From a virus: a stretch of 64,000 nucleotides of DNA. The DNA is taken from IMG/VR virus record IMGVR_UViG_3300042566_002057, positions 62,001-126,000 of that record. One strand, given 5' to 3'. The position numbers and the translations under genes were made by a program. This document shows, piece by piece, positions 2,651 through 60,894 of the stretch. The notes below the pieces were generated by a model. It saw nothing but the letters and a program-made list of their open reading frames with translations, ran no database searches and was not told the DNA's origin. The stretch's first letter is position 1; every line of letters starts with the position of its first letter.

Positions 2651-3054
2651 AGAAAATTTACTCAAAAATAGAATCTGAAAAACTGATTTGTTCAGTTATT
2701 TCTTTAGAAGACATTGGTTCTTATCGAATAGATATTAGTCCGGAGAGTGAATTTTTACAAGTTAGTGCTAGAAGTCTAAATGATAAAGTATTTGTAAAGG
2801 CACATAAACATAAACCTATTTTAAGAGAAACTACTATAACACAAGAGGCATGGATTGTACACAGAGGTAAAATAAAAGCAATGATATATGATATTGATAA
2901 AACCTTTATAGAAGAAATTATCATAACTGATGGTGGTTGTATAGTTTTATATAATGGAGGTCATAGTCTCACTACACTTGAAGAAAACACCATATTTTAT
3001 GAGATTAAAACCGGTCCATATTTTGGTTATGAAAATGATAAAGAAGATATATGA
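2647..3054 (+). CDS. Small cupin-fold protein (WbuC/WxcM-like)
   Basis: This 135-residue protein has a single cupin core: a first motif around KAHKHK (residues 55-60) and a second around GGHSL (near 107), with the beta-rich pattern EAWIVHRGKIKAMIYD between them. Small cupins of this type occur in O-antigen and sugar-modification operons as sugar isomerases or metal-binding accessory proteins. It overlaps both neighbours by 4 bases. The His pair suggests metal binding. I cannot say whether it is an isomerase. Confidence 0.6.
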   Translation: MKKIYSKIESEKLICSVISLEDIGSYRIDISPESEFLQVSARSLNDKVFVKAHKHKPILRETTITQEAWIVHRGKIKAMIYDIDKTFIEEIIITDGGCIVLYNGGHSLTTLEENTIFYEIKTGPYFGYENDKEDI

Positions 3055-3809
3055 TAACTGTCAATTTTAATCCATTAACCGATGATAAAAATATAGCACT
3101 TGGTAATCATATGTTTCAATATGCTGTCTGTAGAATAGTTGCTGAAAAAAATTCTTATAGTTTTTATATACCTCACAAAAGTTTTATTTCTCAGTGTTTT
3201 GAGAATATAGACCTAGGAGAAAAAAATGGTGAAATATTACATAATTACATTGAAAGTGCTGACCAAACATACGATCCTAATATTTTTTCTGTTTCAGACT
3301 TTACAAATTTAGTTGGTTATTTTCAAACTGAAAAATATTTTTTAGACTACGAAGACGATGTGAAAATGTGGTTCAAACCAACATTAGATAGTAAAACAAA
3401 AAGTATAATTGATAAATATCCAATATCTAAATATTGTTACATTCACTTAAGAGGAGGAGATTATAGAATTAATGGTTCACTATTACCCAAAGAGTATTTT
3501 GATAGAGCTATTGAAAAAGTCAAAGAGATTAAAAGTGACTTATCTTTTGTTGTTGTGACTGATGATTTAGAACTCTCTAAAAGTTATTTTCCAAACTTTG
3601 ATGCTATATCAAATGAAGTCATAACGGATTTTAAGACACTTTACTTTTCTAATTTTTCAATTATATCAAACTCATCATTCTCTTGGTGGTCAAGTTGGTT
3701 GACTGATAAAGAAATAACTATTGCTCCTAATAATTGGTTATATTATAACAATACAGCAAAAGATATTCATCCAAAAGACATTAAAACTAATAAATTTATA
3801 TTTATATGA
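3051..3809 (+). CDS. GT11 family alpha-1,2-fucosyltransferase
   Basis: This 252-residue protein has the family's hallmark motifs: GNHMFQYAVCRIVA near the N-terminus (the usual GN(Q/H)(M/L)FQYA), HLRGGDY at residues 132-138 (the H-x-R-x-G-D-Y GDP-fucose site), and SNSSFSWWSSWL near residue 205 (S-x-SFSWW). Length is slightly below the usual 280-300. It would add fucose in alpha-1,2 linkage using GDP-fucose. It is coupled to both neighbours by ATGA overlaps. Phage copies may modify host surface glycans or decorate the virion; the direction is not visible here. Confidence 0.88.
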   Translation: MITVNFNPLTDDKNIALGNHMFQYAVCRIVAEKNSYSFYIPHKSFISQCFENIDLGEKNGEILHNYIESADQTYDPNIFSVSDFTNLVGYFQTEKYFLDYEDDVKMWFKPTLDSKTKSIIDKYPISKYCYIHLRGGDYRINGSLLPKEYFDRAIEKVKEIKSDLSFVVVTDDLELSKSYFPNFDAISNEVITDFKTLYFSNFSIISNSSFSWWSSWLTDKEITIAPNNWLYYNNTAKDIHPKDIKTNKFIFI

Positions 3810-4927
3810 AATTTGATTTTGTAATAGTTGGTTCTGGTTTCTTTGGTGCTATCTGTGCTTATGAACTAAATAAGAGCGGATATAAATGTTTAGTTTTAGA
3901 AAAGAGAAATCACATTGGTGGTAATTGTTATACTGAAAATAAAGACGGTATAAACATACACACTTACGGACCTCATATTTTTCACACATCAAATGAAAAT
4001 GTTTGGTCTTGGATAAACCAATTTGTAAGCTTCAACAACTTCACACTTAGACCGGTTGCAAATTATAAGGATGAGATTTACTCTTTACCATTTAATATGT
4101 GGACATTTTCTAAATTGTGGAATATAACTCATCCTGAACAAGCTAAAAAAATTATTGAAGAGCAATCTAAAGAAATTGAGGAACCTCAAAATCTTGAAGA
4201 ACAAGCAATAAAATTAGTTGGTAAAGATGTTTATTATAAGCTTATAAAAGGATATACTGAAAAACAGTGGAGAAAGTCAGCGACTGAACTTCCAAAAGAA
4301 ATTATTAAAAGACTTCCGGTAAGATTTACTTATGACAACAATTACTTTAATGATAAGTATCAAGGTATTCCAATTGGTGGATATACTCAAATTTTTGAGA
4401 AGTTGTTACAAGACATCGAAGTTAAATTAGAAGTAGATTACCTAAAAGATAAAGAATATTGGAACTCACAATCAAAGAGAGTAATTTATACCGGTCCAAT
4501 TGATGCTTATTTTGATTATCAATTTGGTGAACTAGAATATAAAACTACTGAATTTGACCATAAAAGAATTAAATCTGATAATTTTCAAGGAATTGCTATG
4601 ATGAATTTTACAGATATTGAAGTACCGTATACTAGATGTATTGAACATAAACACTTTGAGAACTCTGTATCAGATTCAACTTGGATTAGTTATGAGTATC
4701 CAGTGGAATATAATAAAACAAAAGAACCTTATTATCCAGTTAATGATAAAGTAAATAATGAAAAGTACACTGAATATAAAAATCTTTCACAGAGTATAGA
4801 AAATATTTATTTTGGTGGAAGATTAGCTGAATATAAATACTATGACATGCATCAAGTTATAGATAGTGCTCTTAAATTTGTAGATAACTTATTAGAATCT
4901 CTGAATGATTCCAGGAATTTCTCCTAA
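3806..4927 (+). CDS. glf: UDP-galactopyranose mutase
   Basis: This 373-residue flavoenzyme converts UDP-galactopyranose to UDP-galactofuranose. The N-terminus FVIVGSGFFGAICAYEL is the FAD-binding Rossmann motif, followed by VLEKRNHIGGNCYTE, and the body has GPHIFHT, NYKDEIYSLPFN, GYTEKQWRKSATELP and a C-terminal FGGRLAEYKYYDMHQVI, all typical of bacterial Glf. Length matches the family. It closes the glycan operon and implies that a Galf-containing glycan is made. Its 3' end overlaps the convergent tail gene by 36 bases, so the two transcription units meet without a terminator. Confidence 0.95.
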   Translation: MKFDFVIVGSGFFGAICAYELNKSGYKCLVLEKRNHIGGNCYTENKDGINIHTYGPHIFHTSNENVWSWINQFVSFNNFTLRPVANYKDEIYSLPFNMWTFSKLWNITHPEQAKKIIEEQSKEIEEPQNLEEQAIKLVGKDVYYKLIKGYTEKQWRKSATELPKEIIKRLPVRFTYDNNYFNDKYQGIPIGGYTQIFEKLLQDIEVKLEVDYLKDKEYWNSQSKRVIYTGPIDAYFDYQFGELEYKTTEFDHKRIKSDNFQGIAMMNFTDIEVPYTRCIEHKHFENSVSDSTWISYEYPVEYNKTKEPYYPVNDKVNNEKYTEYKNLSQSIENIYFGGRLAEYKYYDMHQVIDSALKFVDNLLESLNDSRNFS

Positions 4928-11944: not shown

Positions 11945-12922
11945 TTATAAATTGAGTAATATTTTAACAGTGTAGTCATATACTTCATAGTTTTCAGTAT
12001 CAAATCCTCTATTACCTCTTGAAACATCAAATATTACTTCTTCATAATCTAAAGTTGGTAAAATTGTTGGAAGAACTTCATCTAAGTCAGACTCTAGTTT
12101 TAATAAATTCATTTTACCTGTTGTGTGTGAATCGTGATAACCACCTATATTTATAGTGACACACGGTTTATACATTTCTAAAATTTTAGGTATAGAGTAT
12201 TCTTTTAATTCTTTAATATCTCTTTCTGTGATAGTTACACTACGTTTCTCATCACCCTTAAAAGTAGCACCAGCATAAATACCCATTTCTTTGTAATCAT
12301 CTATATTAAAGTTTTGACACTGCCATTTCTTATCAGTAACATAATAACTTTCATCACTTTGTCTTAAAAAGTAGGATGGATAAGAACCAATATTAAGTGT
12401 TGGAAAAACTATATCTTTTATGATACTTATAATAATTCTCATTTTAGTTTTATCATCTGTTTCTTTTACAGAAAGTAAACCGTTATATTTATATTGAGAT
12501 GATTTTTCATAATTCTCTACATCACCATAAGCTATACAACACATTGTATACTTTTGTTTTTCTGAAGGTAGTAAATCATAAACATCATACATTCTATCAT
12601 TAATATATTCAACATCGACTTTATCAATCGAATCAAACATTTTATCAACTAATGTCTCAATCTTATCATACCAACCTTCTCCGATAAAATGGTCAGACCA
12701 TTTTTTTACAGACTGAAAAGTAACTGGTTGTGAACCACCTCTACTCCATTCCCAAGACTTAAGATCTTCGATCCAATCGTGAATTCCATATGAGTTATTT
12801 GACTCAAATATTTGATATTTTTTTAAGTATCTCATTCTATCTCTAATTAGTATCTGGATAACTTCTTCTTTAGTTAAAGTTTTAGAATTCAAACTTTCAT
12901 TTATTCTCTTTAGGTATTTCAT
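11945..12922 (-). CDS. Candidate packaged protein with two tandem capsid-targeting-like motifs
   Basis: This 325-residue protein begins MKYLKRINES and has a second motif, MRYLKKYQIFES, at residues 31-42. The repeat could come from a duplication, a fusion of an upstream short tagged gene, or two alternative starts. The body has no recognised fold; W-rich and Asp-rich stretches and ESYYVTDKKWQCQNFNIDDYKEMGIYAGATFKG look like an ordered globular domain. It overlaps its upstream neighbour by one base and abuts the downstream one. Confidence 0.6.
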   Translation of the reverse strand: MKYLKRINESLNSKTLTKEEVIQILIRDRMRYLKKYQIFESNNSYGIHDWIEDLKSWEWSRGGSQPVTFQSVKKWSDHFIGEGWYDKIETLVDKMFDSIDKVDVEYINDRMYDVYDLLPSEKQKYTMCCIAYGDVENYEKSSQYKYNGLLSVKETDDKTKMRIIISIIKDIVFPTLNIGSYPSYFLRQSDESYYVTDKKWQCQNFNIDDYKEMGIYAGATFKGDEKRSVTITERDIKELKEYSIPKILEMYKPCVTINIGGYHDSHTTGKMNLLKLESDLDEVLPTILPTLDYEEVIFDVSRGNRGFDTENYEVYDYTVKILLNL

Positions 12923-13461
12923 CAGATACTAAATTTAGTTTTTGTACCATCTGGTTTAGAATAAACTATATTAGTCACATTTTTTACTTGATATTTATAA
13001 TCTGATTTAACATATTTTTTACCTGTTCCTTTATTAACATAAGCAATCGTGATGTGTGGCTTATAATCAGGAAACTCATTTGAGTTAGGAAACTCAGATA
13101 ATTTATTGTGTAACTCTAAAAGAGTACCATCTGGTCTTACATTGAATTTAACAACATCATACTTTTCATTCTCAAAGATATCAATACCATCAACTTCAAT
13201 ATTAATATCACTATTGAAATTATCGAATACTGATTTTACCATTTCATCTGTTACTTCTTCATGTAGACCGTAAAGTATAGTAACATGTGGATTTTTTTGT
13301 ATACTGTGAGTAGAGTCACCTTCTTCTTGATAAACATCTTCAGTATCAATTGATGATGTTATTTCATCCCAATTGCTTATTGGAATTTCAACCATTACAC
13401 AACCATACTTATAGCCGTTTATTGATTCATTGATAAACTGTATGTAACTTTTAATTTTCAT
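12922..13461 (-). CDS. 2H phosphoesterase-like protein with capsid-targeting-like N-terminus
   Basis: This 179-residue protein starts MKIKSYIQFINES, the packaging-type motif, followed by a compact domain with two H-x-T motifs: PHVTILYG (His59, Thr61) and PHITIAYV (His136, Thr138). Paired H-x-(T/S) motifs about 75 residues apart define the 2H phosphoesterase superfamily, which opens or hydrolyses 2',3'-cyclic phosphates and cyclic oligonucleotides. The superfamily includes T4 Acb1, which destroys CBASS signal molecules, and RNA cyclic phosphodiesterases. Context suggests delivery with the DNA. Whether the substrate is a cyclic nucleotide signal or RNA ends cannot be read from the sequence. Confidence 0.75.
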   Translation of the reverse strand: MKIKSYIQFINESINGYKYGCVMVEIPISNWDEITSSIDTEDVYQEEGDSTHSIQKNPHVTILYGLHEEVTDEMVKSVFDNFNSDINIEVDGIDIFENEKYDVVKFNVRPDGTLLELHNKLSEFPNSNEFPDYKPHITIAYVNKGTGKKYVKSDYKYQVKNVTNIVYSKPDGTKTKFSI

Positions 13462-13832
13462 TAGAATGGATAATCTTCTTTTTTCTCTTCAGTTGCAAAT
13501 ATTTGTATATTAATAGAAGAAACAAATATTTCTGTTGATAATTTATATTCTGGGTACCTTTCAGACAGTCTATTTAAAGCAACTTCTACTTCTTGTAGTA
13601 AATTACTATTATACTTTGTGTAATTTATAAAGTTAAGTAACTCAGAATTTTTAATCTTAGTGGTTCTTCTTAGAACTCTATCATCAGGTTTTGATTTAAC
13701 TTTTACATTTATAGTAACGTATGTTTGATAGTCACTTATTTCAACTACACCGTTATCTATAAGTTCAGCAAAACAATCGTAAATAAAATCATAGTCTGTT
13801 TTACTTTCATTAATTCTTTTCAGATATTTCAT
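13461..13832 (-). CDS. Small candidate packaged protein, first of a tagged operon
   Basis: This 123-residue protein begins MKYLKRINES, identical over ten residues to the gene two places downstream. The remainder (helix, then beta strands DYQTYVTINVKVK and STEIFVSSINIQIFA) has no family I know. A TTAATATATA box lies 5 bases before the start, making this the likely first gene of the four-gene late run down to 11213. Confidence 0.6.
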   Translation of the reverse strand: MKYLKRINESKTDYDFIYDCFAELIDNGVVEISDYQTYVTINVKVKSKPDDRVLRRTTKIKNSELLNFINYTKYNSNLLQEVEVALNRLSERYPEYKLSTEIFVSSINIQIFATEEKKEDYPF

Positions 13833-13897: not shown

Positions 13898-14089
13898 ATG
13901 GCATCAGAAAAAGAACTTATTAAATTAGAGAAAGAAATACGTAGCAAAATGATTCAGATTAAAAATGGTAAAATCACACCAGCTGAGTCTGGTATTGGTA
14001 AACTTATTAACCTAATGAAAAATTTTGATGAGCCTCTTTTTAGTAAACTAATAGCAGAATATAAAGAGATATTATCACAGTCTAAGTGA
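13898..14089 (+). CDS. Small helical protein of unknown function
   Basis: This 63-residue, Lys/Glu-rich helical protein has its own Bacteroidota-type promoter and stands alone on the plus strand between minus-strand virion genes. That layout is typical of an early accessory gene. I see no motif to assign a function. Confidence 0.6.
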   Translation: MASEKELIKLEKEIRSKMIQIKNGKITPAESGIGKLINLMKNFDEPLFSKLIAEYKEILSQSK

Positions 14090-16933: not shown

Positions 16934-17419
16934 TTATTTTACTAATTCATATTTTTCTACTAACTCTGAGTGAATTAGCTGTGGAATCCTTTTCCACTCT
17001 TTGTACCAAATGTTACATACATAAACATCTTGTCCATTATCTTTAATTATTTCAACAACATCATACTCAGCTGATGGAAAAGGACCAATTGGTTTAGTAG
17101 TAACTTTACCAATTATTGGCATCTTAGTCACATCATCACCACTATAAGAGAGTGATTCAACATATTTAATATCAAAATTTTCATCTGAAATTTCTTCTTC
17201 ATCTTCAATATCAAAGTCAAACCCCATACTAACTAAAGAACTCATAGTTGCGTCAATCATATCTAATTTAGCACCTCTTTCTTTCATATAATTCTCAAAA
17301 AATTCAGGGGTTATTATTTGACCATCAGCTCTCATCCTTTTGAGTTGCGGTAATAAATCATTAGCAATGTCATCTGCCAAGTCAAAATAAGTTTCATTAA
17401 ATTTTCTTAAGTATTTCAT
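16934..17419 (-). CDS. Candidate packaged protein with capsid-targeting-like N-terminus
   Basis: This 161-residue protein begins MKYLRKFNET. The rest is acidic (DFDIEDEEEISDENFDI) with a C-terminal beta domain (EYDVVEIIKDNGQDVYVCNIWYKEW) that resembles a small SH3-like barrel. It is last in a second run of tagged genes, after those at 17422 and 17853. Function unknown. Confidence 0.6.
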   Translation of the reverse strand: MKYLRKFNETYFDLADDIANDLLPQLKRMRADGQIITPEFFENYMKERGAKLDMIDATMSSLVSMGFDFDIEDEEEISDENFDIKYVESLSYSGDDVTKMPIIGKVTTKPIGPFPSAEYDVVEIIKDNGQDVYVCNIWYKEWKRIPQLIHSELVEKYELVK

Positions 17420-17421
17420 AA

Positions 17422-17832
17422 TTATCTAAAAATTTTTGAATTAAATATCTTATCTGATAATAAATAATGAAAAGATTGACTTACTTCTTCTTTACTTAAA
17501 TCAGAATACTCTGTATCTAAAAGAGATTTAATCTTAACATAAAGACCAGATTGTCTATCATTAAGTTTATAACCATTTTCTAAATACTCTTCTTCTGATA
17601 TTATTTCTTCTATTATTTTTTCTAAGAAGTTATTAGGATCAGATATACGACCACTATCAATAACTTGTTGAAGTTCGTCAGATGTAAAGGTTAATTCATT
17701 ACATAAGTCACCTAATTCAGAAAGAATATCTTCATTAGAAAGTTTATCAAGATTGATAATTTTATCAGCCATTTTAATGAATTCTTCAATTCTATCAAAT
17801 GATGCTTCGTTAAATCGTTTTAAGTGTTTCAT
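17422..17832 (-). CDS. Small helical candidate packaged protein
   Basis: This 136-residue protein begins MKHLKRFNEA. The remainder is helical and acidic (LSNEDILSELGDLCNELTFTSDELQQVID) with no known family. It sits in the same run as its tagged neighbours, two bases upstream of the next gene. Confidence 0.6.
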   Translation of the reverse strand: MKHLKRFNEASFDRIEEFIKMADKIINLDKLSNEDILSELGDLCNELTFTSDELQQVIDSGRISDPNNFLEKIIEEIISEEEYLENGYKLNDRQSGLYVKIKSLLDTEYSDLSKEEVSQSFHYLLSDKIFNSKIFR

Positions 17833-17852: not shown

Positions 17853-18107
17853 TTAAAGTTTTCTCAACATATTCAATATTAATGTATTATCATAAACATC
17901 AGTATCTTGAGAATCACCTCCTGACCACCAAGTTACATCACTTTTATAATCAGATACTTTGTTAATTGTCATAGTTCCATATTCATAAGGTACTTCAAAT
18001 CCAAATTCATCACCTTTAAATCCGTCAATCTCTTTAGAAAAATTACATAGGTCATCAAATGATAATTTTTCATCAACGGATTCGTTATATGTTTTTAAGT
18101 GTTTCAT
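17853..18107 (-). CDS. Small candidate packaged protein
   Basis: This 84-residue protein begins MKHLKTYNES, followed by a short helix and a beta-rich end (GFEVPYEYGTMTINKVSDYKSDVTWWSGG). It overlaps the upstream gene by 4 bases. Function unknown. Confidence 0.6.
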   Translation of the reverse strand: MKHLKTYNESVDEKLSFDDLCNFSKEIDGFKGDEFGFEVPYEYGTMTINKVSDYKSDVTWWSGGDSQDTDVYDNTLILNMLRKL

Positions 18108-31978: not shown

Positions 31979-32776
31979 GTGAAATATCTAAAGTCTTATA
32001 AAATATTTGAGAGTTACAATACATTCGGAACTAAATCTATAACTGAAAAAGAGTTTGATCAGATTAGAAAAGAGAATTGTAAAAACTGGACTAAAGCTGA
32101 AACTGAAATATTCAGAGGTATGCCAAATTTAGGTGATTATTTGTTAGTAGATCCACTAAAGGGTGACTTTAGAAGTTCAATTGAAGATACTAACATTCAT
32201 TTAGACCTATTATCAAATCTACCAAGTTGGAAAGATTATCCTAAATATGAAAGATGTATTATAGGTGGAACTCGTGGATCAGCGACTGGTACTTATGGAG
32301 AAGCTGTCTATGAAATGATACCTTTTGATAATACAAAAATTGCGGTTTGTCCAGAATCAACTATTTGGGAATCATTTGGTAATGATTATGACAGATGGGG
32401 AGGTGACATCTATTTAGTTGAACATTTTTTAGACTCAATTGACTTAGATACAAGTTGGAATCAGATTGGTGGTGGAACTATTGAGACTAAATTAAAATCT
32501 TTAGGTAATAGTTTTCACGGAAGTAAAATTTCAGAAATACCTAATAAAGATCAAGAATCAGTAGATAATTTTTTAATGAGACATGCTGAATTTAGTTGGA
32601 AAAGACCAAATGAAATTACTGGTGAAGATTGTTTTAATTTTATAAACAACAGTCTTTTTAATCCAAAAGTTAGAGGTTTTCAATTATTAAACTATGACCA
32701 AAACTTCAGTACAGAAAAAGGTAAACAAGTGTGGACAGAAGGTCCGGTATTACTTATCAAATCACATTTAGTTTAG
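31979..32776 (+). CDS. Candidate packaged protein, possible ADP-ribosyltransferase
   Basis: This 265-residue protein starts at GTG with MKYLKSYKIFES, a clear packaging-type motif. TEIFRGM (near residue 46) resembles the Arg-bearing first strand of mono-ADP-ribosyltransferases, and GEAVYEMIPFDNTKIAVCP (near 110) resembles the strand after the catalytic Glu, (E)-x-(I/V)-(I/L)-P. A clean Ser-Thr-Ser motif is not visible. In T4, the Alt ADP-ribosyltransferase is packed in the head and cut by the prohead protease, so the combination fits. The enzyme call is tentative. Confidence 0.45.
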   Translation: MKYLKSYKIFESYNTFGTKSITEKEFDQIRKENCKNWTKAETEIFRGMPNLGDYLLVDPLKGDFRSSIEDTNIHLDLLSNLPSWKDYPKYERCIIGGTRGSATGTYGEAVYEMIPFDNTKIAVCPESTIWESFGNDYDRWGGDIYLVEHFLDSIDLDTSWNQIGGGTIETKLKSLGNSFHGSKISEIPNKDQESVDNFLMRHAEFSWKRPNEITGEDCFNFINNSLFNPKVRGFQLLNYDQNFSTEKGKQVWTEGPVLLIKSHLV

Positions 32777-46540: not shown

Positions 46541-48082
46541 TTACTTAACTACTAAGTGTGGAGATGACCAAAGTGATTCTGACTTTGCAAATTTTACAAT
46601 TGTAGAAACAAATCTATTTCTGGTGATTGAACTTTGTGTGAGCAACCAATCTAAAACTAAGTAAGATTGTAATCTTGAGTTTATTTCTTGAGTTTTAGTT
46701 TCCGATTCTAAATCAACACTAACACACTGAGCTATCTCTGGTGAAGTAAAATTGTGTGTAGACAAAATCTCTCTGATTTTTTCCATATCTTTTTCTCTTC
46801 TGACTTTCTCAATCAAATTGTACCATTGATTAGGAACTATTGTTGAAAGTAACGAACCAGCTTTTCCAGACATATGTTGTGCTTTTTTAGAACCTTTCAC
46901 CTCAACTGAAATAGCAGATACTGGACTAGTATCAAATGTTCTAAGTTGTAACTCACCGTCTCTATAAAACTTAGAGTTCTTAGAGAACTTATATCCGAAT
47001 TTTATAACAACAGTTTTTATTTTATTATTTGATTTATAACCTAAAAACTGGTGTTGAACATCATCTTCTTTCATATTAACAGTTCTCACTCTGTTTTCAC
47101 CAGTTTGTTGTTGTTTTAAAGATACACCAACTATACCATTTCTTTTTTCAATACATGCATAAAGGTAATTGTTCAATTCGTCTAAATCATTAATATTGGT
47201 ATCATACCACTTAGTATTGTAAATTGGTTCTTTACCATCTTTAAATGCTATCCAAATATCACTTGGATTCCATTTAGATATATTTACAGTATCAGGAAAC
47301 TCATAAATAGATTTTTCTTTGTCATAAGGATCTAAATTTCTATACATTTCTATCTCTTCATCTAAGTAACTTTTAGCCATTTGAGCAATTAAAAGGTTAG
47401 TTGAATTTTTATAAATTGCTTCTACATTAAATATATTCTTATCGATGAATGTTATTAATTCCTTAGACTGACGAATCATTGAGTTATACAAACCTTTATT
47501 TGCTATAAACTCCTCAAATCTTCTTCTAAAATCACCTCTCTCATTGTCTGAAATTATAGCAAATCTTTTTTCACTATCTTCTTCGCTGTATAAATAATCC
47601 ATTTCAATTTTTCCTCTATTAGAGTAAATATCGACTTTGTGACCAGTTAATTCCCATATTGTTGATGCAAAAATAATAATGAATGCTGTTTCTCTAAAAT
47701 GCTCAGCTCTTTTTGTAACACCTTGTCTACCTTTTTGTCTTAGTATAGTAGTTCTAATTCCTTTCTTTACTATAGCGAATGGGTATTTTCTTGATGTTGT
47801 TTCATAAACCATAATTTTACTAAAAGCAGATTCATTATCAAAGTCTAATAACTTCTTTAAGTCTTTAAATTCAAGTGATTTCACCGAAGATGGTCTTATG
47901 TGTAGAATTTCAACATCATCATTTGGTAAATAATCTATAGGAACAAAGGTCAAGTTTTGACTTATTTCAAATCTTTTAGCATATGTTTGACCGTCTCTGG
48001 AGAACTCATATTCAATACCAGATTTACTATCATCGATAGTAGCTTCATTAATAGAAATGTAATTATTGAATTTATTTATCAC
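46541..48082 (-). CDS. Candidate packaged protein, possible PD-(D/E)xK-type nuclease
   Basis: This 513-residue protein starts at GTG with MINKFNNYISINEA, a packaging-type motif. The middle has NISKWNPSDIWIAFKDG followed about 45 residues later by RNGIVGVSLKQQQTGENRV. The spacing of Asp-Ile-(W/Y) and (I/V)-G-(V/I)-S-L-K resembles a PD-(D/E)xK core, where Asp and Lys are catalytic. The N-terminal 200 residues contain KKGIRTTILRQKGRQGVTKRAEHF, possibly nucleic-acid binding. The nuclease call is an inference. A TTTATATATA box lies exactly 4 bases before the GTG. Confidence 0.5.
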   Translation of the reverse strand: MINKFNNYISINEATIDDSKSGIEYEFSRDGQTYAKRFEISQNLTFVPIDYLPNDDVEILHIRPSSVKSLEFKDLKKLLDFDNESAFSKIMVYETTSRKYPFAIVKKGIRTTILRQKGRQGVTKRAEHFRETAFIIIFASTIWELTGHKVDIYSNRGKIEMDYLYSEEDSEKRFAIISDNERGDFRRRFEEFIANKGLYNSMIRQSKELITFIDKNIFNVEAIYKNSTNLLIAQMAKSYLDEEIEMYRNLDPYDKEKSIYEFPDTVNISKWNPSDIWIAFKDGKEPIYNTKWYDTNINDLDELNNYLYACIEKRNGIVGVSLKQQQTGENRVRTVNMKEDDVQHQFLGYKSNNKIKTVVIKFGYKFSKNSKFYRDGELQLRTFDTSPVSAISVEVKGSKKAQHMSGKAGSLLSTIVPNQWYNLIEKVRREKDMEKIREILSTHNFTSPEIAQCVSVDLESETKTQEINSRLQSYLVLDWLLTQSSITRNRFVSTIVKFAKSESLWSSPHLVVK

Positions 48083-51117: not shown

Positions 51118-51783
51118 TTACTTTAAGGGAATTTCCGGATCAATCGAAAACCTATCATTTAAGTAAGCTTTAAGTTCATTTTCAATATAATTATCGGGAA
51201 CTTCTTGGTCTAAGTTTTCAAGAGCCATTTTTTCAGAAAGATATAGTGAAAATTGTTGTAACACTTCTGGTTTGATTGCTTCAACAATCCTATCAGATAC
51301 AACAAATGCTCTAGTGAATCTATCTTTTTCATGTGTAAAATCACCTTCAGCAACTGACATAGTTGCGTCAATTACCTTCTTTAAGAAGGCTGGATAATCA
51401 TTACCTGGATCAGCTAATATTGGAGCAATCACTTTATTAAATGCTCTTGATGAGCCAAGAATATAACCTATAATTGCTACAATCGGAAAGAAAGGAGCTA
51501 AAGCCATTGGTATAATTCTATGAACCGCTTTTATGATTCCGGTTTTAATATCGGTTCTTCTTTTAGCATCTCTAGCATCATGAAAAAGAGCATTTAACAT
51601 TCCAAATGTAAATCTTCTACCAGTATCTTGTAAGTATTTAGCTAAACTACCACGGTGAGCATGATAAAGATGTCTATTGATTTCATCTTCATCAGTAACT
51701 CCCAATCTTAACAACTCAGCTCTAATGTTATCGTCAAATTTTTCTAAAATCATAAATTCTTGATAACTCTTTACACGTTCCAT
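51118..51783 (-). CDS. Candidate packaged protein with hydrophobic segment
   Basis: This 221-residue protein begins MERVKSYQEFMILEK, close to the T4 internal-protein leader (MKTYQEFIAE). A hydrophobic stretch, IIPMALAPFFPIVAIIGYILG (about residues 90-110), could enter a membrane. The flanks are helical and charged. A TTAATATATA box is exactly 4 bases upstream. An injected protein that reaches the host membrane is a reasonable guess. Confidence 0.6.
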   Translation of the reverse strand: MERVKSYQEFMILEKFDDNIRAELLRLGVTDEDEINRHLYHAHRGSLAKYLQDTGRRFTFGMLNALFHDARDAKRRTDIKTGIIKAVHRIIPMALAPFFPIVAIIGYILGSSRAFNKVIAPILADPGNDYPAFLKKVIDATMSVAEGDFTHEKDRFTRAFVVSDRIVEAIKPEVLQQFSLYLSEKMALENLDQEVPDNYIENELKAYLNDRFSIDPEIPLK

Positions 51784-52660: not shown

Positions 52661-54001
52661 ATGAGAGAAACTTCAATTACTAACTTTCTAGCAAAAGAAT
52701 ATAAAGAGTTTGCAATGTACTCGATTGAGGGTAGAGCTATACCTTCTATTGTTGATGGTTTTAAACCTACCCAAAGAAAAATTATTCACGTTTCAAGTCA
52801 GATTTGGAAGACCGGAAATGAAAAAACTCTTAAAGTATTTCAGTTAGGTGGTAAAGTTGCATCTGATGCTTTTTATCATCACGGAAACGCTTCATTAGAA
52901 AATGCCATTATTACGATGGCTCAGAGATTCAAGAATAACGCACCTCTATTAGAAGAAGAAGGACAGTTTGGTTCATTAAGATCCCCACAAGCTGGTGCTC
53001 CTCGTTATATCGGAACTAAACTCACAGAGAACTATAGATTACTTTACAAAGACTTTGAGTTATTAGAATATAAACAAGAAGAAGGTGAATCAATTGAACC
53101 AAAATTCTTTTTACCTATTATTCCAACTGTACTTATTAACGGTTCATCTGGAATTGCCGTAGGATTCGCATCAAACATTCTAAACAGAGATGTTAAAAGT
53201 ATAATCGAATGTTGTCAAAAGATTTTAACAGATAAAAAAATATCTGAAGTTAAACCATCTTTAACAGGATTCACTGGTGAGTTCATACAGGATAAAGAAA
53301 ATCCAAAAAGATGGATTATTAGAGGTAAGTTTGTAAGAGCAAACACTTCAACTGTTAAAATATCAGAACTCCCACCATCAATGACTTATGAAAAATACGA
53401 AGAGATTTTAGACAAACTTGTTGATGACAAATTAATTGTTTCTTATGATGACAACTGTAAGGATAACATAGATTATACAATAAAGTTTACACGTTCTGAT
53501 TTAGAGAAATTAGATGACGAGAAACTAATTAAGTTATTGAAATTAGAAGAATCATCTACCGAAATATTCTCAACACTAGATGAGACTGGTAAATTAATGA
53601 TATTTGAGTCGACATCAGATATGATCACTTACTTTGTTAATTTCAGATTGACATATTATCATAAGAGAAAACAATTCTTATTAGATAAATTAAACAGAGA
53701 ACTAAAAATACTTTCTAATCGTGGTCGATTTATTAAAGCAATAATTGATGGTAAATTAAAAGTTAACAATGTTGCTAAGTCTCAAATCATCGAAGGAATT
53801 GAAGCGATGGGTTTAGATAAGATAGATGACTCATACGATTATCTTTTAAGAATGCCTATCTACTCCTTAACAAAAGAGATGTATGAAAAGTTAAAAGAAG
53901 ACTTTAAATTGAAAAAAGAAGAGATTACAAAATTAGAAGCAACCGATCCAAAAGATATGTATATAGATGATCTTAATGAGTTAAAAAAGAAATTTAAATA
54001 A
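52661..54001 (+). CDS. Type II DNA topoisomerase medium subunit (T4 gp52-like)
   Basis: This 446-residue protein is the DNA-cleaving subunit. AMYSIEGRAIPSIVDGFKPTQRKI, GGKVASDAFYHHGNASLENAI and QFGSLRSPQAGAPRYIGTKL match gp52 and GyrA; the Tyr in APRYIGT is the residue that bonds to DNA. It ends in a long charged coiled coil. It pairs with the large subunit encoded on the other strand at 49214. Confidence 0.95.
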   Translation: MRETSITNFLAKEYKEFAMYSIEGRAIPSIVDGFKPTQRKIIHVSSQIWKTGNEKTLKVFQLGGKVASDAFYHHGNASLENAIITMAQRFKNNAPLLEEEGQFGSLRSPQAGAPRYIGTKLTENYRLLYKDFELLEYKQEEGESIEPKFFLPIIPTVLINGSSGIAVGFASNILNRDVKSIIECCQKILTDKKISEVKPSLTGFTGEFIQDKENPKRWIIRGKFVRANTSTVKISELPPSMTYEKYEEILDKLVDDKLIVSYDDNCKDNIDYTIKFTRSDLEKLDDEKLIKLLKLEESSTEIFSTLDETGKLMIFESTSDMITYFVNFRLTYYHKRKQFLLDKLNRELKILSNRGRFIKAIIDGKLKVNNVAKSQIIEGIEAMGLDKIDDSYDYLLRMPIYSLTKEMYEKLKEDFKLKKEEITKLEATDPKDMYIDDLNELKKKFK

Positions 54002-54303
54002 TGGAAAGAATGAAAAGATATGAGGATTTCAAGAATGAAAGTAATGATACTGACTACCTCACTAAAGAAGAACTTGAAAAAGTAAAGTGGACTAGATATA
54101 AAATTATAGTTCCGACTCAAGAAGATAAAGAAGAATTAGAGAAAGCGTTTGAGCACATTCACTATTCTGATATTGATACAGATAATATTGCTGTTAATCA
54201 ATTAGCACATGAATATCTAACTGAAGAAGTAACAGGTGATACTCAAACCAAAAATAATATTATAGTTGACGAAGAACTATATAATAAATTAAATAAAAAC
54301 TAA
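54001..54303 (+). CDS. Small candidate packaged protein
   Basis: This 100-residue acidic protein begins MERMKRYEDFKNES, a packaging-type motif, then TKEELEKVKWTRYKIIVPTQEDKEELEKAF, a short mixed fold. It shares one base with the topoisomerase gene before it and one with the epimerase gene after it. It is the only tagged gene here without a late-type box, so its timing may differ. Confidence 0.55.
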   Translation: MERMKRYEDFKNESNDTDYLTKEELEKVKWTRYKIIVPTQEDKEELEKAFEHIHYSDIDTDNIAVNQLAHEYLTEEVTGDTQTKNNIIVDEELYNKLNKN

Positions 54304-55181
54304 TGAAAAGTTTAGTAACAGGAGGTCTTGGATTTGTTGGATCAAATTTGGTTGATATGTTAGTATCAATGGGTGATGAAGTTTGGGTTATTGACGACCT
54401 CTCATCAGAGTCTTCATCATTAGATTATAAGAATTCAGAAGCTAACTATGTAATTGATAAAGTTGAAAATATTAGATCACACTCTAATGAAAGATTTGAT
54501 AGAATTTTTCACTTAGCAGCAAAGGCTAGAATACAACCATCATTTGATAATCCTACTGAATATTTTAATTCCAATGCTTATGGTACATCAGAGTTGATGG
54601 AATTTGCGAGAACATCAAATTCTGGAATTGTTGTCTATGCCACTACATCATCTAAAAATCATGGTTCGCCTTATATCACACCATACACATACTATAAAGT
54701 TGTTGGTGAAGGTATTCTCAAAACTTACGCGAATTGTTTTAATCAAAAATGTGCAATGGCTACTTTCTACAACGTATATGGTCCGAGAGAACCAAAAGTG
54801 GGTGAGTGGGCAACTGTCGTTGCAAAGTTTGGTAGACAATGGCAAGATGGTGAACAACTTACTATCGTTGGTACTGGTGAACAAACCAGAGATTTTACAC
54901 ACGTTGATGATATTTGTAAAGGACTTATTCGTATAAGTGAAGATAATTGGTATGGTGAAAACTTTGATTTAGGAAGAGGTGTACCAGTTTCTATTTTAGA
55001 ACTATCTAAACTTTGGTGTGATAATGAGAGTAGAATATCTTTTGTTCCTTTAAGAAAAAATGAAGGTCTTCATACAGAATCTGATTATGAAAAAACCTAT
55101 GGGATGATAGGTTGGAGAGCTCAAGTAAATCTAAAAGATTATATTATTAAGGTAAAAAATAAAACTGAGGTTTTGTCATAA
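54303..55181 (+). CDS. NAD-dependent sugar-nucleotide epimerase/dehydratase
   Basis: This 292-residue SDR-type protein has the NAD motif GGLGFVGSNLVDML, WVIDDLSS at the end of strand 2, FHLAAKARIQPSFDNP, and the catalytic Tyr-x-x-x-Lys in PYTYYKVVGEGIL. It then has FYNVYGPREP and RDFTHVDDICKGL. It changes a sugar while bound to a nucleotide, as GalE or HldD-like enzymes do. It could serve the glycan operon at 124-4927 or a heptose pathway with 41178 and 30159. Confidence 0.88.
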   Translation: MKSLVTGGLGFVGSNLVDMLVSMGDEVWVIDDLSSESSSLDYKNSEANYVIDKVENIRSHSNERFDRIFHLAAKARIQPSFDNPTEYFNSNAYGTSELMEFARTSNSGIVVYATTSSKNHGSPYITPYTYYKVVGEGILKTYANCFNQKCAMATFYNVYGPREPKVGEWATVVAKFGRQWQDGEQLTIVGTGEQTRDFTHVDDICKGLIRISEDNWYGENFDLGRGVPVSILELSKLWCDNESRISFVPLRKNEGLHTESDYEKTYGMIGWRAQVNLKDYIIKVKNKTEVLS

Positions 55182-57312: not shown

Positions 57313-57480
57313 ATGAAAAAACAGATTGCTAAAAAAACAGACACATTTGCTCATTATGCTCCAGTAGGCAAAGCCTTTTGTGAAAGTAAATGTGATAGAA
57401 AAGTTATTATGACTAAAGACGGACCTGTCATTGTTTGCAACGGTTGTATGAGAATTGTTATGGACAACAGAGAAAACTAA
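57313..57480 (+). CDS. Small zinc-ribbon-like protein (55 residues)
   Basis: This 55-codon gene runs from the ATG at 57313 to TAA at 57480. It has AFCESKCDRK (C-x-x-x-C) and, about 16 residues later, VCNGCMRI (C-x-x-C), the four Cys of a zinc ribbon. It starts 2 bases after the preceding stop. Small zinc ribbons of phages often bind nucleic acid or polymerase. The role here is unknown. Confidence 0.65.
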   Translation: MKKQIAKKTDTFAHYAPVGKAFCESKCDRKVIMTKDGPVIVCNGCMRIVMDNREN

Positions 57481-57543: not shown

Positions 57544-59766
57544 ATGAAGAAAGCTTTACTAACACTAATCAGTACAATAGCCTTAGTCAATACACTATTC
57601 TCTCAGTATTGTCCATTTCTAGGCCCAGATCAATTTTTACCGTGTGGTGTGACATCAACAACACTCACTGCTGACTTAAGTCAATGTGGACCAGGTGGTG
57701 CAAATCCAAACCAAACAACTAACTATGGTGTTACTCAAATTCCTTATGTTTCTCAAACAAATACAGGTACTTTAGTCAATTTGTCGGATGACTCACAATC
57801 AGGTCCTTTCAATATTGGATTTACTTTTTGTTACTTTGGTCAAACCTACACACAATTTTATATTGGATCAAATGGTTGGATATCATTTAGTGCTGGTCAA
57901 TCAACCACATTTACCTCAACTCCAATTCCAAACGTTGCTGCTACAACTCCCAAAAACTGTATTATGGGACCGTGGCAAGATTGGAATCCTGGAATAGGTG
58001 GTCAAATAAGATACCAAGTTCAAGGAACAGCACCGTGTCGTAAATTAGTCGTGAGTTGGGTAAATGTGCCAATGTTTTCTTGTACGAATTTATTGGGAAC
58101 TTTTCATATTGTAATTTATGAATCAACTAACGTAATCGAAAATCACATACAGAATAAACCAAATTGTCTACAATGGGCTGGTGGAACAGCAGTACAAGGT
58201 ATTCATAACTTACCAGGTACTACAGCAATATCTGTTCCTGGTAGAAATTCATCACAATGGACCACACAAAATGATGCAAGAAGATGGACACCATCTGGAC
58301 CAGTTGTTACTCCAACACTAACTTGGTTTCAAGTTGGAAATCCAAATCCAATAGGAACAGGACCTACTATTACAGTAACCCCACCACCAGCTGGTGCTAA
58401 CTACACTTGTCAATTTGTTTATCCAATTTGTAATACTGGGTGGTCTAATTGTAATTTAGCAGGTGGTGGATTAGGACCAGACACAGTTTTTGTTCAACCA
58501 GGTCCACCTCAATTACCTAACCCAACTGTAGTTTTTCAAGATCCTTTATGTAATGGTGATTGTAACGGAACAATTGATGTCACACCCAATGGTGGTACCG
58601 GAGTTATTACAATTTCTTGGACAACACCAAATAATGGATTTAATCTAACTAGCTTATGTGCTGGAAACTACAACTATAACTTAATAGATGCTGCTGGATG
58701 TACTTACAATGGTTCAGTGACTCTCAATAATCCACCGGTAGTCATAGTGAGTACTATAACAGGATCTGATACTGTATGTATTAGTTCTAATAATGAATTA
58801 TATTCGGTAGTTAATCAACCTGGTTATACTTACATTTGGCAGACAATTGGTAATATAACCTCTGGTCAAAATACAAATACAATTACAGTTGACTGGAGTT
58901 CACAACCTTCTGGATTTATCCCTGGTTCAGTTCAAGTTACAGCTTATAACCAAAACAATTGTCCAAGTCTTCCTTCCGTATTCGATTTAACAGTTTTCTC
59001 GGTAAGTCCTTTAATAACTCAAATTGGTCCTTTCTGTACTTATGATGAATGTGAATTATTGACAGCTCAACCAATAGGTGGATTATTTACTATAAATGGT
59101 AACAACAACACACAGTTTTGCCCTCAATCAAATTCATCTTTTGATACGGTTGTCTACACTTATGTACAAAGTGGTTGTATCTTTTATGATACAGCATCTT
59201 TTGTAGTAAATCCACAACCTAATATTCTAAGCATCTCACCGGATAACTCTTTTCTAGAGCTCTGTGAAGGTGATTCAGTACAAATAGATTTTAGTATTCA
59301 ATCTACATTAAATGGAATTGTTAGTTGGAATATCAATAATCAACAAATTAATAGTATTAGCTCTATTTCAACTACTTGGAATTCATTTGGAACCTTTATA
59401 ATAGATGCTTTTGTAACAACACCTGAAGGTTGTGTCTCACCTGAAATATCAACATCATTAACTATTCAAGAGTGTCCAAATACTTTAATTTATATACCAA
59501 ACTCTTTTACACCTGATGGTGATGAGCATAACAACAAATGGTTACCAGTCTTCACAAGTGGGTTCGATCCTTTTGACGTAGATATATTTGTTTTTAATAG
59601 ATGGGGTGAACTTGTATGGGAATCTCATAATGTTAGTTTTGGTTGGGATGGTACTTACCAGGGTACGATGTGTCCAGTTGGGGTTTATGTTTACAAAATC
59701 ACTTATGGTAATGTTAAAAATGATTCCAGAAGTATTATTATTGGTCACTTAACTTTATTGAAATAA
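57544..59766 (+). CDS. Secreted surface protein with type IX secretion (gliding-motility type B) C-terminal domain
   Basis: This 740-residue protein begins with a signal peptide (MKKALLTLISTIALVNTLFSQ, about residues 1-21). A large beta domain follows (to about 250), then a SprB-like repeat near 330-395 (DPLCNGDCNGTIDVTPNGG ... LCAGNYNYNLIDAAGC) and Ig/PKD-like domains. The last 97 residues (644-740: YIPNSFTPDGDEHNNKW ... FNRWGELVWES ... GWDGTYQG ... VGVYVYKITYG) are the gliding-motility-associated type B sorting domain. In Bacteroidota this domain sends proteins through the type IX secretion system to the cell surface. An AATATATA box lies 6 bases upstream. Confidence 0.88.
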   Translation: MKKALLTLISTIALVNTLFSQYCPFLGPDQFLPCGVTSTTLTADLSQCGPGGANPNQTTNYGVTQIPYVSQTNTGTLVNLSDDSQSGPFNIGFTFCYFGQTYTQFYIGSNGWISFSAGQSTTFTSTPIPNVAATTPKNCIMGPWQDWNPGIGGQIRYQVQGTAPCRKLVVSWVNVPMFSCTNLLGTFHIVIYESTNVIENHIQNKPNCLQWAGGTAVQGIHNLPGTTAISVPGRNSSQWTTQNDARRWTPSGPVVTPTLTWFQVGNPNPIGTGPTITVTPPPAGANYTCQFVYPICNTGWSNCNLAGGGLGPDTVFVQPGPPQLPNPTVVFQDPLCNGDCNGTIDVTPNGGTGVITISWTTPNNGFNLTSLCAGNYNYNLIDAAGCTYNGSVTLNNPPVVIVSTITGSDTVCISSNNELYSVVNQPGYTYIWQTIGNITSGQNTNTITVDWSSQPSGFIPGSVQVTAYNQNNCPSLPSVFDLTVFSVSPLITQIGPFCTYDECELLTAQPIGGLFTINGNNNTQFCPQSNSSFDTVVYTYVQSGCIFYDTASFVVNPQPNILSISPDNSFLELCEGDSVQIDFSIQSTLNGIVSWNINNQQINSISSISTTWNSFGTFIIDAFVTTPEGCVSPEISTSLTIQECPNTLIYIPNSFTPDGDEHNNKWLPVFTSGFDPFDVDIFVFNRWGELVWESHNVSFGWDGTYQGTMCPVGVYVYKITYGNVKNDSRSIIIGHLTLLK

Positions 59767-59803: not shown

Positions 59804-60178
59804 ATGAAAAAAGAAGGAATTGAAAGTATGGTAGATAAAGTAGTTTTAGAATCTCTAAATGAGGGTTATTCTATTAAGAATACTCAATTAAAACTACAAG
59901 AGAGAATAATTAAATTCAGAAACATACTTATCAGAGATAATGTTGATTTAGAACAAACTGTACTTACTGCAAATGAAGATTGGCAAAAAATAACCAATAC
60001 TCGACATAGATTTGCCGCATATTATATTTGTTTTTGTTGTAAACGTATAGTAGACTTAGAATGGTTCTCAAATAAGAAACTTACCTTCTATAATTTATCA
60101 AATAGTAAAATGTTAAGTTTACTAAAGTTTAGAGATAAGTTATCAAAAGAAAACGCTGTAGAAAATTCACCTTTTTGA
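59804..60178 (+). CDS. Unknown early helical protein
   Basis: This 124-residue Lys-rich protein begins MKKEGIESMVDKVVLESLNE. It contains YYICFCCKRIVDLEWF, with a Cys cluster that could bind metal but does not form a full zinc finger. Function unknown. Confidence 0.6.
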   Translation: MKKEGIESMVDKVVLESLNEGYSIKNTQLKLQERIIKFRNILIRDNVDLEQTVLTANEDWQKITNTRHRFAAYYICFCCKRIVDLEWFSNKKLTFYNLSNSKMLSLLKFRDKLSKENAVENSPF

Positions 60179-60510: not shown

Positions 60511-60894
60511 TTACTGAAACGATGATGGTAAAGTATATTTCTCAGCCTTAAGAAATTTTATCAAAAGAAATATAATACTGGCTCCTGGTATTAATGTGAG
60601 TACAGTAAGACTAATTGTCTTAAATATATCTTTTAATTGGTCATAAATCTTTTTTCTTTGTTCTTTATTTAATTCTATTTCATCTTTACTAGCTCTTACG
60701 ACTAGATTAAAAGCTTCTTTTGTTTCTTTACTTTCATTTTTAATGCTATCAATAAATTTAAAAAAATTCTTTTTCATTTCTTTATAAAAGTCAGAATAAA
60801 TATCACCCATCTTAGCGATTGGATCAACCGGCATAAACATCATATCCATTGTCTCATTGATGTTAAAATTCTCAAATGTTTTAAGGTGTTTCAT
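60511..60894 (-). CDS. Candidate packaged protein with C-terminal membrane segment, LETM1-like end
   Basis: This 127-residue protein begins MKHLKTFENFNINE, a clear packaging-type motif with Glu at a likely cut site. A helical, charged middle leads to ISLTVLTLIPGASIIFLLIKFLK and ends TLPSSFQ. This hydrophobic, Pro-containing end with LPS(S/A)F resembles the membrane segment of LETM1-like proteins in Bacteroidota. It could insert into the host inner membrane after injection. Confidence 0.6.
   Translation of the reverse strand: MKHLKTFENFNINETMDMMFMPVDPIAKMGDIYSDFYKEMKKNFFKFIDSIKNESKETKEAFNLVVRASKDEIELNKEQRKKIYDQLKDIFKTISLTVLTLIPGASIIFLLIKFLKAEKYTLPSSFQ

Follow-up and report, generated by a model that had tools for sequence, protein, structure and literature searches.

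Type B substrates of the type IX secretion system (T9SS) require a shuttle of the PorP/SprF family, which is usually encoded by an adjacent gene and produced in limiting amounts (PMC12618676), and they appear to be anchored through binding to this shuttle (PMC9143113). Five C-terminal motifs (A to E) were shown to be necessary for type B secretion, and three of the 12 type B cargos of Flavobacterium johnsoniae are orphans that share one shuttle; when there is too little shuttle, an orphan cargo may be secreted inefficiently (PMC12618676). In phages, T9SS cargo of type A has been described in 'Cryophage' (PMC7468147, 2020), for which a hijacking of host secretion and a role in superinfection were proposed. 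T9SS sorting domains were also noted by the authors of another study on gut-phage contigs, beside crAss-BACON ORFs (PMC6949934). Our searches of the open-licence literature turned up no description of a jumbo phage with type B cargo.

The window, the whole 64,000-nucleotide stretch analyzed here, corresponds to G000:C1:62001-126000 and is part of a 151,950-bp IMG/VR virus record. A gene on its plus strand (57544..59766, ATG start) encodes a 740-aa protein that we describe as a phage-encoded orphan type B T9SS cargo. Residues 1 to 20 (MKKALLTLISTIALVNTLFS, 57544..57603) were read as a Sec signal peptide from the sequence and a heuristic scan, with predicted cleavage between the final serine of MKKALLTLISTIALVNTLFS and a glutamine, so that Gln21 (57604..57606) is expected at +1 once signal peptidase I has cut, as in the Bacteroidetes Q-rule (PMC5837995). 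Glutamine at +1 is the pattern of Bacteroidetes signal peptidase I substrates (PMC5837995; PMC10653852). The N-terminal cysteine-rich beta domain that defines the family follows (residues 22-320, 57607..58503), and then come one 36-residue SprB repeat (residues 328-363, 58525..58632; PF13573, E 2.6e-7) and PKD/Ig-like domains, including a PKD-like domain of the PKD_6 family (residues 402-472, 58747..58959; PF19408, E 4.9e-9), all encoded on the plus strand like the sorting domain below. Cysteine makes up 3.4% of the protein, about three times the mean of the window genes (1.06 +/- 0.79%). The last 90 residues form a complete type B sorting domain (residues 650-739, 59491..59760), which matched CHU_C (PF13585) in Pfam at residues 650-729 (E 2e-14) and TIGR04131 in NCBIfam at residues 650-739, with 50.6 bits against a cut-off of 35 (E 1.6e-13). 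The CHU_C, PKD_6 and SprB repeat matches all exceeded the curated Pfam cut-offs, and the C-terminal domain (CTD) is of type B and not of type A (TIGR04183). When the complete virus record was searched for the type B domain, this gene was recovered at 8.7e-16; none of 14 control genomes matched.

Homologues of the ORF were found at 26 IMG/VR loci in a scan of viral contigs, as well as in the 634,780-bp phage LR745206, where the homologue shares 53.5% identity over 97% of the length. Together, the 26 contigs and LR745206 provided 20 distinct phage homologues. The signal peptide, the +1 glutamine (invariant) and the sorting domain were retained in all 20 aligned sequences. Invariant positions of the sorting domain include Y650-P652-N653-F655-T656-P657, N685-R686-W687-G688 and W701-D702-G703-T704, and the blocks YxPNxFTP, NRWG, WDGT and GxY occur in every homologue. 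The signal peptide, SprB repeat and type B sorting domain announced in a preliminary description of this gene, which was made from the sequence alone, are confirmed. The same description had called the protein SprB-like, an identity that we did not retain since the repeat number varies from 0 to 2 across homologues (0 in L030, about 1 in LR745206 and in the window protein, 2 in most others) and since the protein has only 740 aa. A part in gliding, also put forward there, found no support. Median pairwise dN/dS values were 0.151 for the N-domain, 0.298 for the middle part, 0.244 for the CTD and 0.384 for the signal peptide. The family is under purifying selection, with omega of about 0.15 to 0.30 in the mature domains. 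The GC3 of the gene (0.182) is close to that of the other window genes (0.192 +/- 0.034), and this phage-like value suggests a long residence in phage genomes. We consider the family to be a maintained protein of predicted exported type.

The N-domain is widespread among T9SS proteins of cellular Bacteroidota, for which 145 candidates were confirmed and 78 loci kept. Maximum-likelihood analysis placed all 20 N-domains from phages in one clade (support 100/96) nested within the cellular family, with UBA2475-like Bacteroidia MAGs and one Flavobacteriales MAG as nearest cellular neighbors. Since the phage proteins form one clade inside the cellular family, a single capture from a Bacteroidota host followed by transfer between phages is the simplest reading and a likely one. 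The cellular relatives from the UBA2475-like MAGs (L040-L048) and from the Flavobacteriales MAG SKW189 (L039) have the same N-domain, a signal peptide and a type B CTD. They differ in being cellular genes that are mostly longer (about 1040 aa), with a CTD less similar to ours: the window protein is 58-73% identical to them in the N-domain and 36-43% in the CTD. No neighbor of PorP/SprF size was seen beside them at the loci read. Identities to the UBA2475-like and Crocinitomix proteins were 0.62 and 0.46, respectively, for the N-domain and 0.37 and 0.42 for the CTD. A joint CTD clade with the cellular MAG relatives was nearly rejected (AU p 0.0575), and the nearest cellular relative of the CTD may differ from that of the N-domain, at a p value that is not significant. 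As the N-domains of cellular relatives reach 73% identity, one could think of a passenger gene recently taken from a bacterium and without function for the phage, or of an assembly contaminant. We give this explanation practically no credence and rejected it on the conserved slot shared across megaphages (see below), the single clade of 20 phage sequences, the low omega and the phage-like GC3. The phage origin of the gene, which had been proposed previously, is borne out.

The window is syntenic with the megaphages LR756502 and LR745206, a pair that is the sister group to Mar_Mega_1 (PMC9723777), and topoisomerase subunits are 77-81% identical. The synteny anchor is a T4 gp52-like topoisomerase subunit (52661..54001, plus strand; 77-79% identity in LR756502 and LR745206), which was not found in the remaining jumbo-phage contigs bearing a homologue of our gene. 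To the left, the slot is bounded by a 55-aa ORF (57313..57480, plus strand) whose homologues hold the same left-hand position beside the type B genes of LR745206 (49%) and LR756502 (57%), and to the right by a 124-aa ORF (59804..60178, plus strand) whose homologue bounds the slot in both megaphages. In this slot beside the topoisomerase genes, all three megaphages carry a type B gene, with ectodomains that are unrelated to one another. The occupant has 740 aa here and 1670 aa with 13 SprB repeats in LR756502, while in LR745206 it is a 107-aa protein (L038:13895-14218) with a signal peptide, a sorting domain and few residues between them. LR756502 encodes a second mini-protein of this kind away from the slot (L036:1486-1836, 116 aa, signal peptide and type B CTD), and in LR745206 the homologue of our protein is located outside the slot. 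No type B match was obtained in the megaphages LR756500, 501, 503 and 504, where the controls were also silent, and the same query matched LR745206 and LR756502. It does not seem that huge phages in general share the type B trait. A bolder and doubtful proposal is that Bacteroidota jumbo phages maintain, at one syntenic locus, a type IX cassette whose contents can be swapped, exchanging ectodomains or even cargo-less sorting domains while the export logic stays constant, so that orphan type B proteins would seize scarce host PorP/SprF shuttles and viral proteins would replace host adhesins on the cell.

We also searched for the shuttle. The PorP/SprF profile PF11751 had no match in 10 phage records, namely G000 (a fragment), LR745206, LR756502 and seven others, two of the ten being 635 and 642 kb long. 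The same profile gave 10, 15 and 17 matches in three related cellular genomes, and a phage-borne shuttle was discarded on this basis. A missing shuttle gene is not disqualifying, as orphan type B cargos exist in F. johnsoniae, and because none was found in the phages a host PorP/SprF shuttle would be needed. This dependence leads to another explanation, in which the type B domain mainly occupies scarce host PorP/SprF and thereby keeps the type B adhesins of the host, which may be receptors or gliding adhesins, from being displayed, the ectodomain being secondary. The suggestion that cargo and shuttle are stoichiometric and the shuttle scarce (PMC12618676) agrees with it, as does the lack of PorP/SprF matches in the 10 phage records, and the nearly cargo-less proteins of the two related megaphages (L038:13895-14218 and L036:1486-1836) fit titration well. 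However, the ectodomain of the window protein is under tighter constraint (omega 0.151 in the N-domain) than its CTD (0.244), and so strong a constraint speaks against titration as the only role of the gene. CTD-only ORFs are also cellular, with about three among some 150 matches listed, two of them possibly partial. We regard titration as quite unlikely to be the main role of the gene.

The N-domain was poorly modeled in a first full-length AF2 model, and we used instead a model built from a 75-sequence alignment (pLDDT 94.1, pTM 0.88). This model had no fold match below E 1e-3 in the PDB, where no known superinfection-exclusion fold was found for it at this threshold, and its best match in BFVD was an uncharacterised phage protein. 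Among solved structures, the model and the CTD come closest to those of GhpA, the grappling-hook protein of Aureispira sp. CCB-QB1 (PDB 9flp and others), which matches our CTD by sequence (E 1.2e-19) and resembles the protein in the fold of its Ig-like repeats. GhpA is a cellular adhesive surface protein of 5898 residues and has no significant match to the N-domain. These relatives, together with the 13 SprB repeats of the LR756502 slot protein and the fact that bacterial type B proteins are adhesins, raise the idea of a phage-encoded adhesin by which infected cells would clump or attach and progeny would be released near new hosts. Such a role is very unlikely in our view, because the likeness to GhpA consists mainly of repeated Ig-like folds with TM-scores of about 0.2, which are not proof of function, and the N-domain, with no PDB match below E 1e-3, does not indicate a ligand. 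As a clue to function, the modeled fold likeness may be taken as a weak one.

Gene neighborhoods in the other phage lineages bear on a possible role in the particle. At L005, L006, L009, L011, L014, L017, L018 and L024, the gene lies near an FKBP-like gene (as judged by eye), and where a contig of this lineage has both, the sheath gene is about 100 kb or more away. A second lineage, with nine contigs (L015, L021, L025, L028 and L030, and also L016, L020, L022 and L026), places the gene in a tail operon, in the order two sheath genes (phrog_23, 5e-74), tail tube (phrog_4542, 4e-24), homologue of our gene, 123-aa ORF, baseplate hub (phrog_150) and tape measure (phrog_167). The gene is located in a tail module in this one lineage and outside it in the window virus and the other lineages. 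Judging from gene order, the tail-operon placement is the strongest argument that could be made for late timing or a virion role. The corresponding explanation is a tail-associated late structural or fibre protein with borrowed Bacteroidota surface modules that would act on the particle, perhaps in host adhesion. In the nine contigs, the gene stands right after the two sheath and tail tube genes, or beside the same downstream genes, before the baseplate hub and tape measure, and virions of phages often bear Ig-like modules. Proteins of the BACON/T9SS kind encoded close to structural genes have also been discussed (PMC6949934). On the other side, all tail-operon homologues keep the signal peptide and the +1 glutamine, neither of which would be needed by a virion protein assembled in the cytoplasm. 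Furthermore, gene and sheath lie far apart elsewhere, at 202 and 34 kb in G012, 224 and 117 kb in G011, 26 and 168 kb in LR745206, and 426 and 236 kb in G005, and the protein matched none of the PHROG families. A promoter search upstream of our gene gave no clear early or late signal. The virion had been discounted earlier on the signal peptide; that argument stands in so far as the peptide is kept in every homologue read, but it is weakened by the gene being inside the tail operon in nine contigs. Overall, we find a virion role rather unlikely.

More T9SS-type genes were found in the same virus, outside the window. At about 23.6-28.3 kb of G000:C1 (L121:7618-12286, minus strand), four consecutive ORFs each encode a signal peptide followed by Q at +1. 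These are an 819-aa ORF with a type A-like CTD, a glycine-rich 349-aa ORF, a 188-aa ORF, and a 190-aa ORF with a type B CTD (2.4e-15). The type A-like CTD (G000:C1:25838-26068, TIGR04183) reached 24.5 bits against a cut-off of 23, although the translated ORF reached 18.6 bits and the domain is under the Pfam cut-off. The four-ORF cluster is retained in G005 and, without its first gene, in G003. The 349-aa and 188-aa ORFs have similar P-I-x-H-N tails. LR745206 encodes an 832-aa protein (L003:9294-11792) whose N-terminus resembles the 349-aa ORF (58%) and whose C-terminus resembles the 190-aa ORF (42%), a fusion which suggests that the pieces act together. The window itself contains surface-glycan genes at 3051-3809, 3806-4927 and 54303-55181 (glycosyltransferase family 11 (GT11), UDP-galactopyranose mutase and NAD-dependent epimerase), which may be a further sign of cell-surface chemistry altered by the virus. 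TonB-receptor plug domains were observed in LR745206 (79335-79634 and 138255-138581) and in LR756502 (152576-152902), and a putative SusC has been reported in LR745206 and Mar_Mega_1 (PMC9723777).

Other features of the window were recorded. The pattern TTG-N18-22-TAnnTTTG, a promoter of Bacteroidota type, precedes the ORFs starting at 13898, 20263, 23358, 29324 and 39231, that is five window ORFs for 0.23 expected from simulations, and this would fit a Bacteroidota host. Upstream of many ORFs (e.g., 57544-59766, 51118-51783, 46541-48082 and 31979-32776) we noted the hexamer TATATA, in a large number of them at positions -10 to -16 relative to the start codon and in some others at about -26 to -36; it may represent a class of phage promoters or an element of translation. 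A short leader such as MKHLKRFNE(S/A) or MERVKSYQEFMILE starts many ORFs, including those at 11945-12922, 12922-13461, 13461-13832, 16934-17419, 17422-17832, 17853-18107, 51118-51783, 54001-54303 and 60511-60894. These leaders resemble the T4 capsid-targeting sequence cut by the prohead protease, and by this analogy the ORFs may encode numerous internal head proteins that are injected along with the DNA.

Taken together, we favor, with somewhat better than even confidence, a captured orphan type B cargo that would be displayed via the host type IX system and a host shuttle and would change the surface of the infected cell. That the protein takes the type IX route of the host, as the preliminary description had envisaged, is the best reading given the conserved +1 glutamine, the cysteine-rich ectodomain, the purifying selection, the single capture from Bacteroidota and the additional T9SS-type genes of the virus. 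During infection, this Bacteroidota-derived protein would leave the cytoplasm by Sec, signal peptidase I would cut before Q21 to give an N-terminal glutamine, and folding with disulfides would take place in the periplasm. The C-terminal domain would then direct passage through the host type IX translocon, and a host PorP/SprF-family shuttle would hold the protein at the cell surface. There, the N-domain of about 300 residues, carried on Ig/PKD/SprB spacers, would alter what the infected cell exposes. As a conjecture, the likeliest benefit would be to hinder the binding of additional phages or the working of an adhesin or receptor of the host. For the phage, we favor, equally as a conjecture, such a surface change over a virion role, titration or adhesion.

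Display on the host surface through type IX secretion has been suggested once before for phages, for type A enzymes in one phage. With a type B cargo that appears to have been maintained for long in several lineages of jumbo phages, each virus having several T9SS-type genes, the idea can be tested in type IX mutants; it would also connect infection by phages with the system of PorP/SprF shuttles and adhesins. For megaphages lacking known hosts, the +1 glutamine and the sorting domains also offer a sequence-based hint of Bacteroidota hosts. Compared with SprB of F. johnsoniae, our protein shares the type B CTD and the SprB repeat. However, SprB, a gliding adhesin of very large size, has many repeats and a cognate SprF encoded downstream (PMC12618676), whereas the phage protein has 740 aa, one repeat and no shuttle gene found. 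The crAss-BACON-adjacent T9SS proteins are other proteins, of other phages, and lie near head genes. Cryophage resembles our case in having phage genes that bear T9SS sorting domains, but its cargos are of type A (PorV), namely an endoglucanase, a GH39 and a PA14 protein, whereas the cargo described here is of type B (PorP/SprF route), has an unrelated ectodomain and occurs in jumbo phages. Type B cargo in jumbo phages is a variant of the published idea of phage type A cargo.
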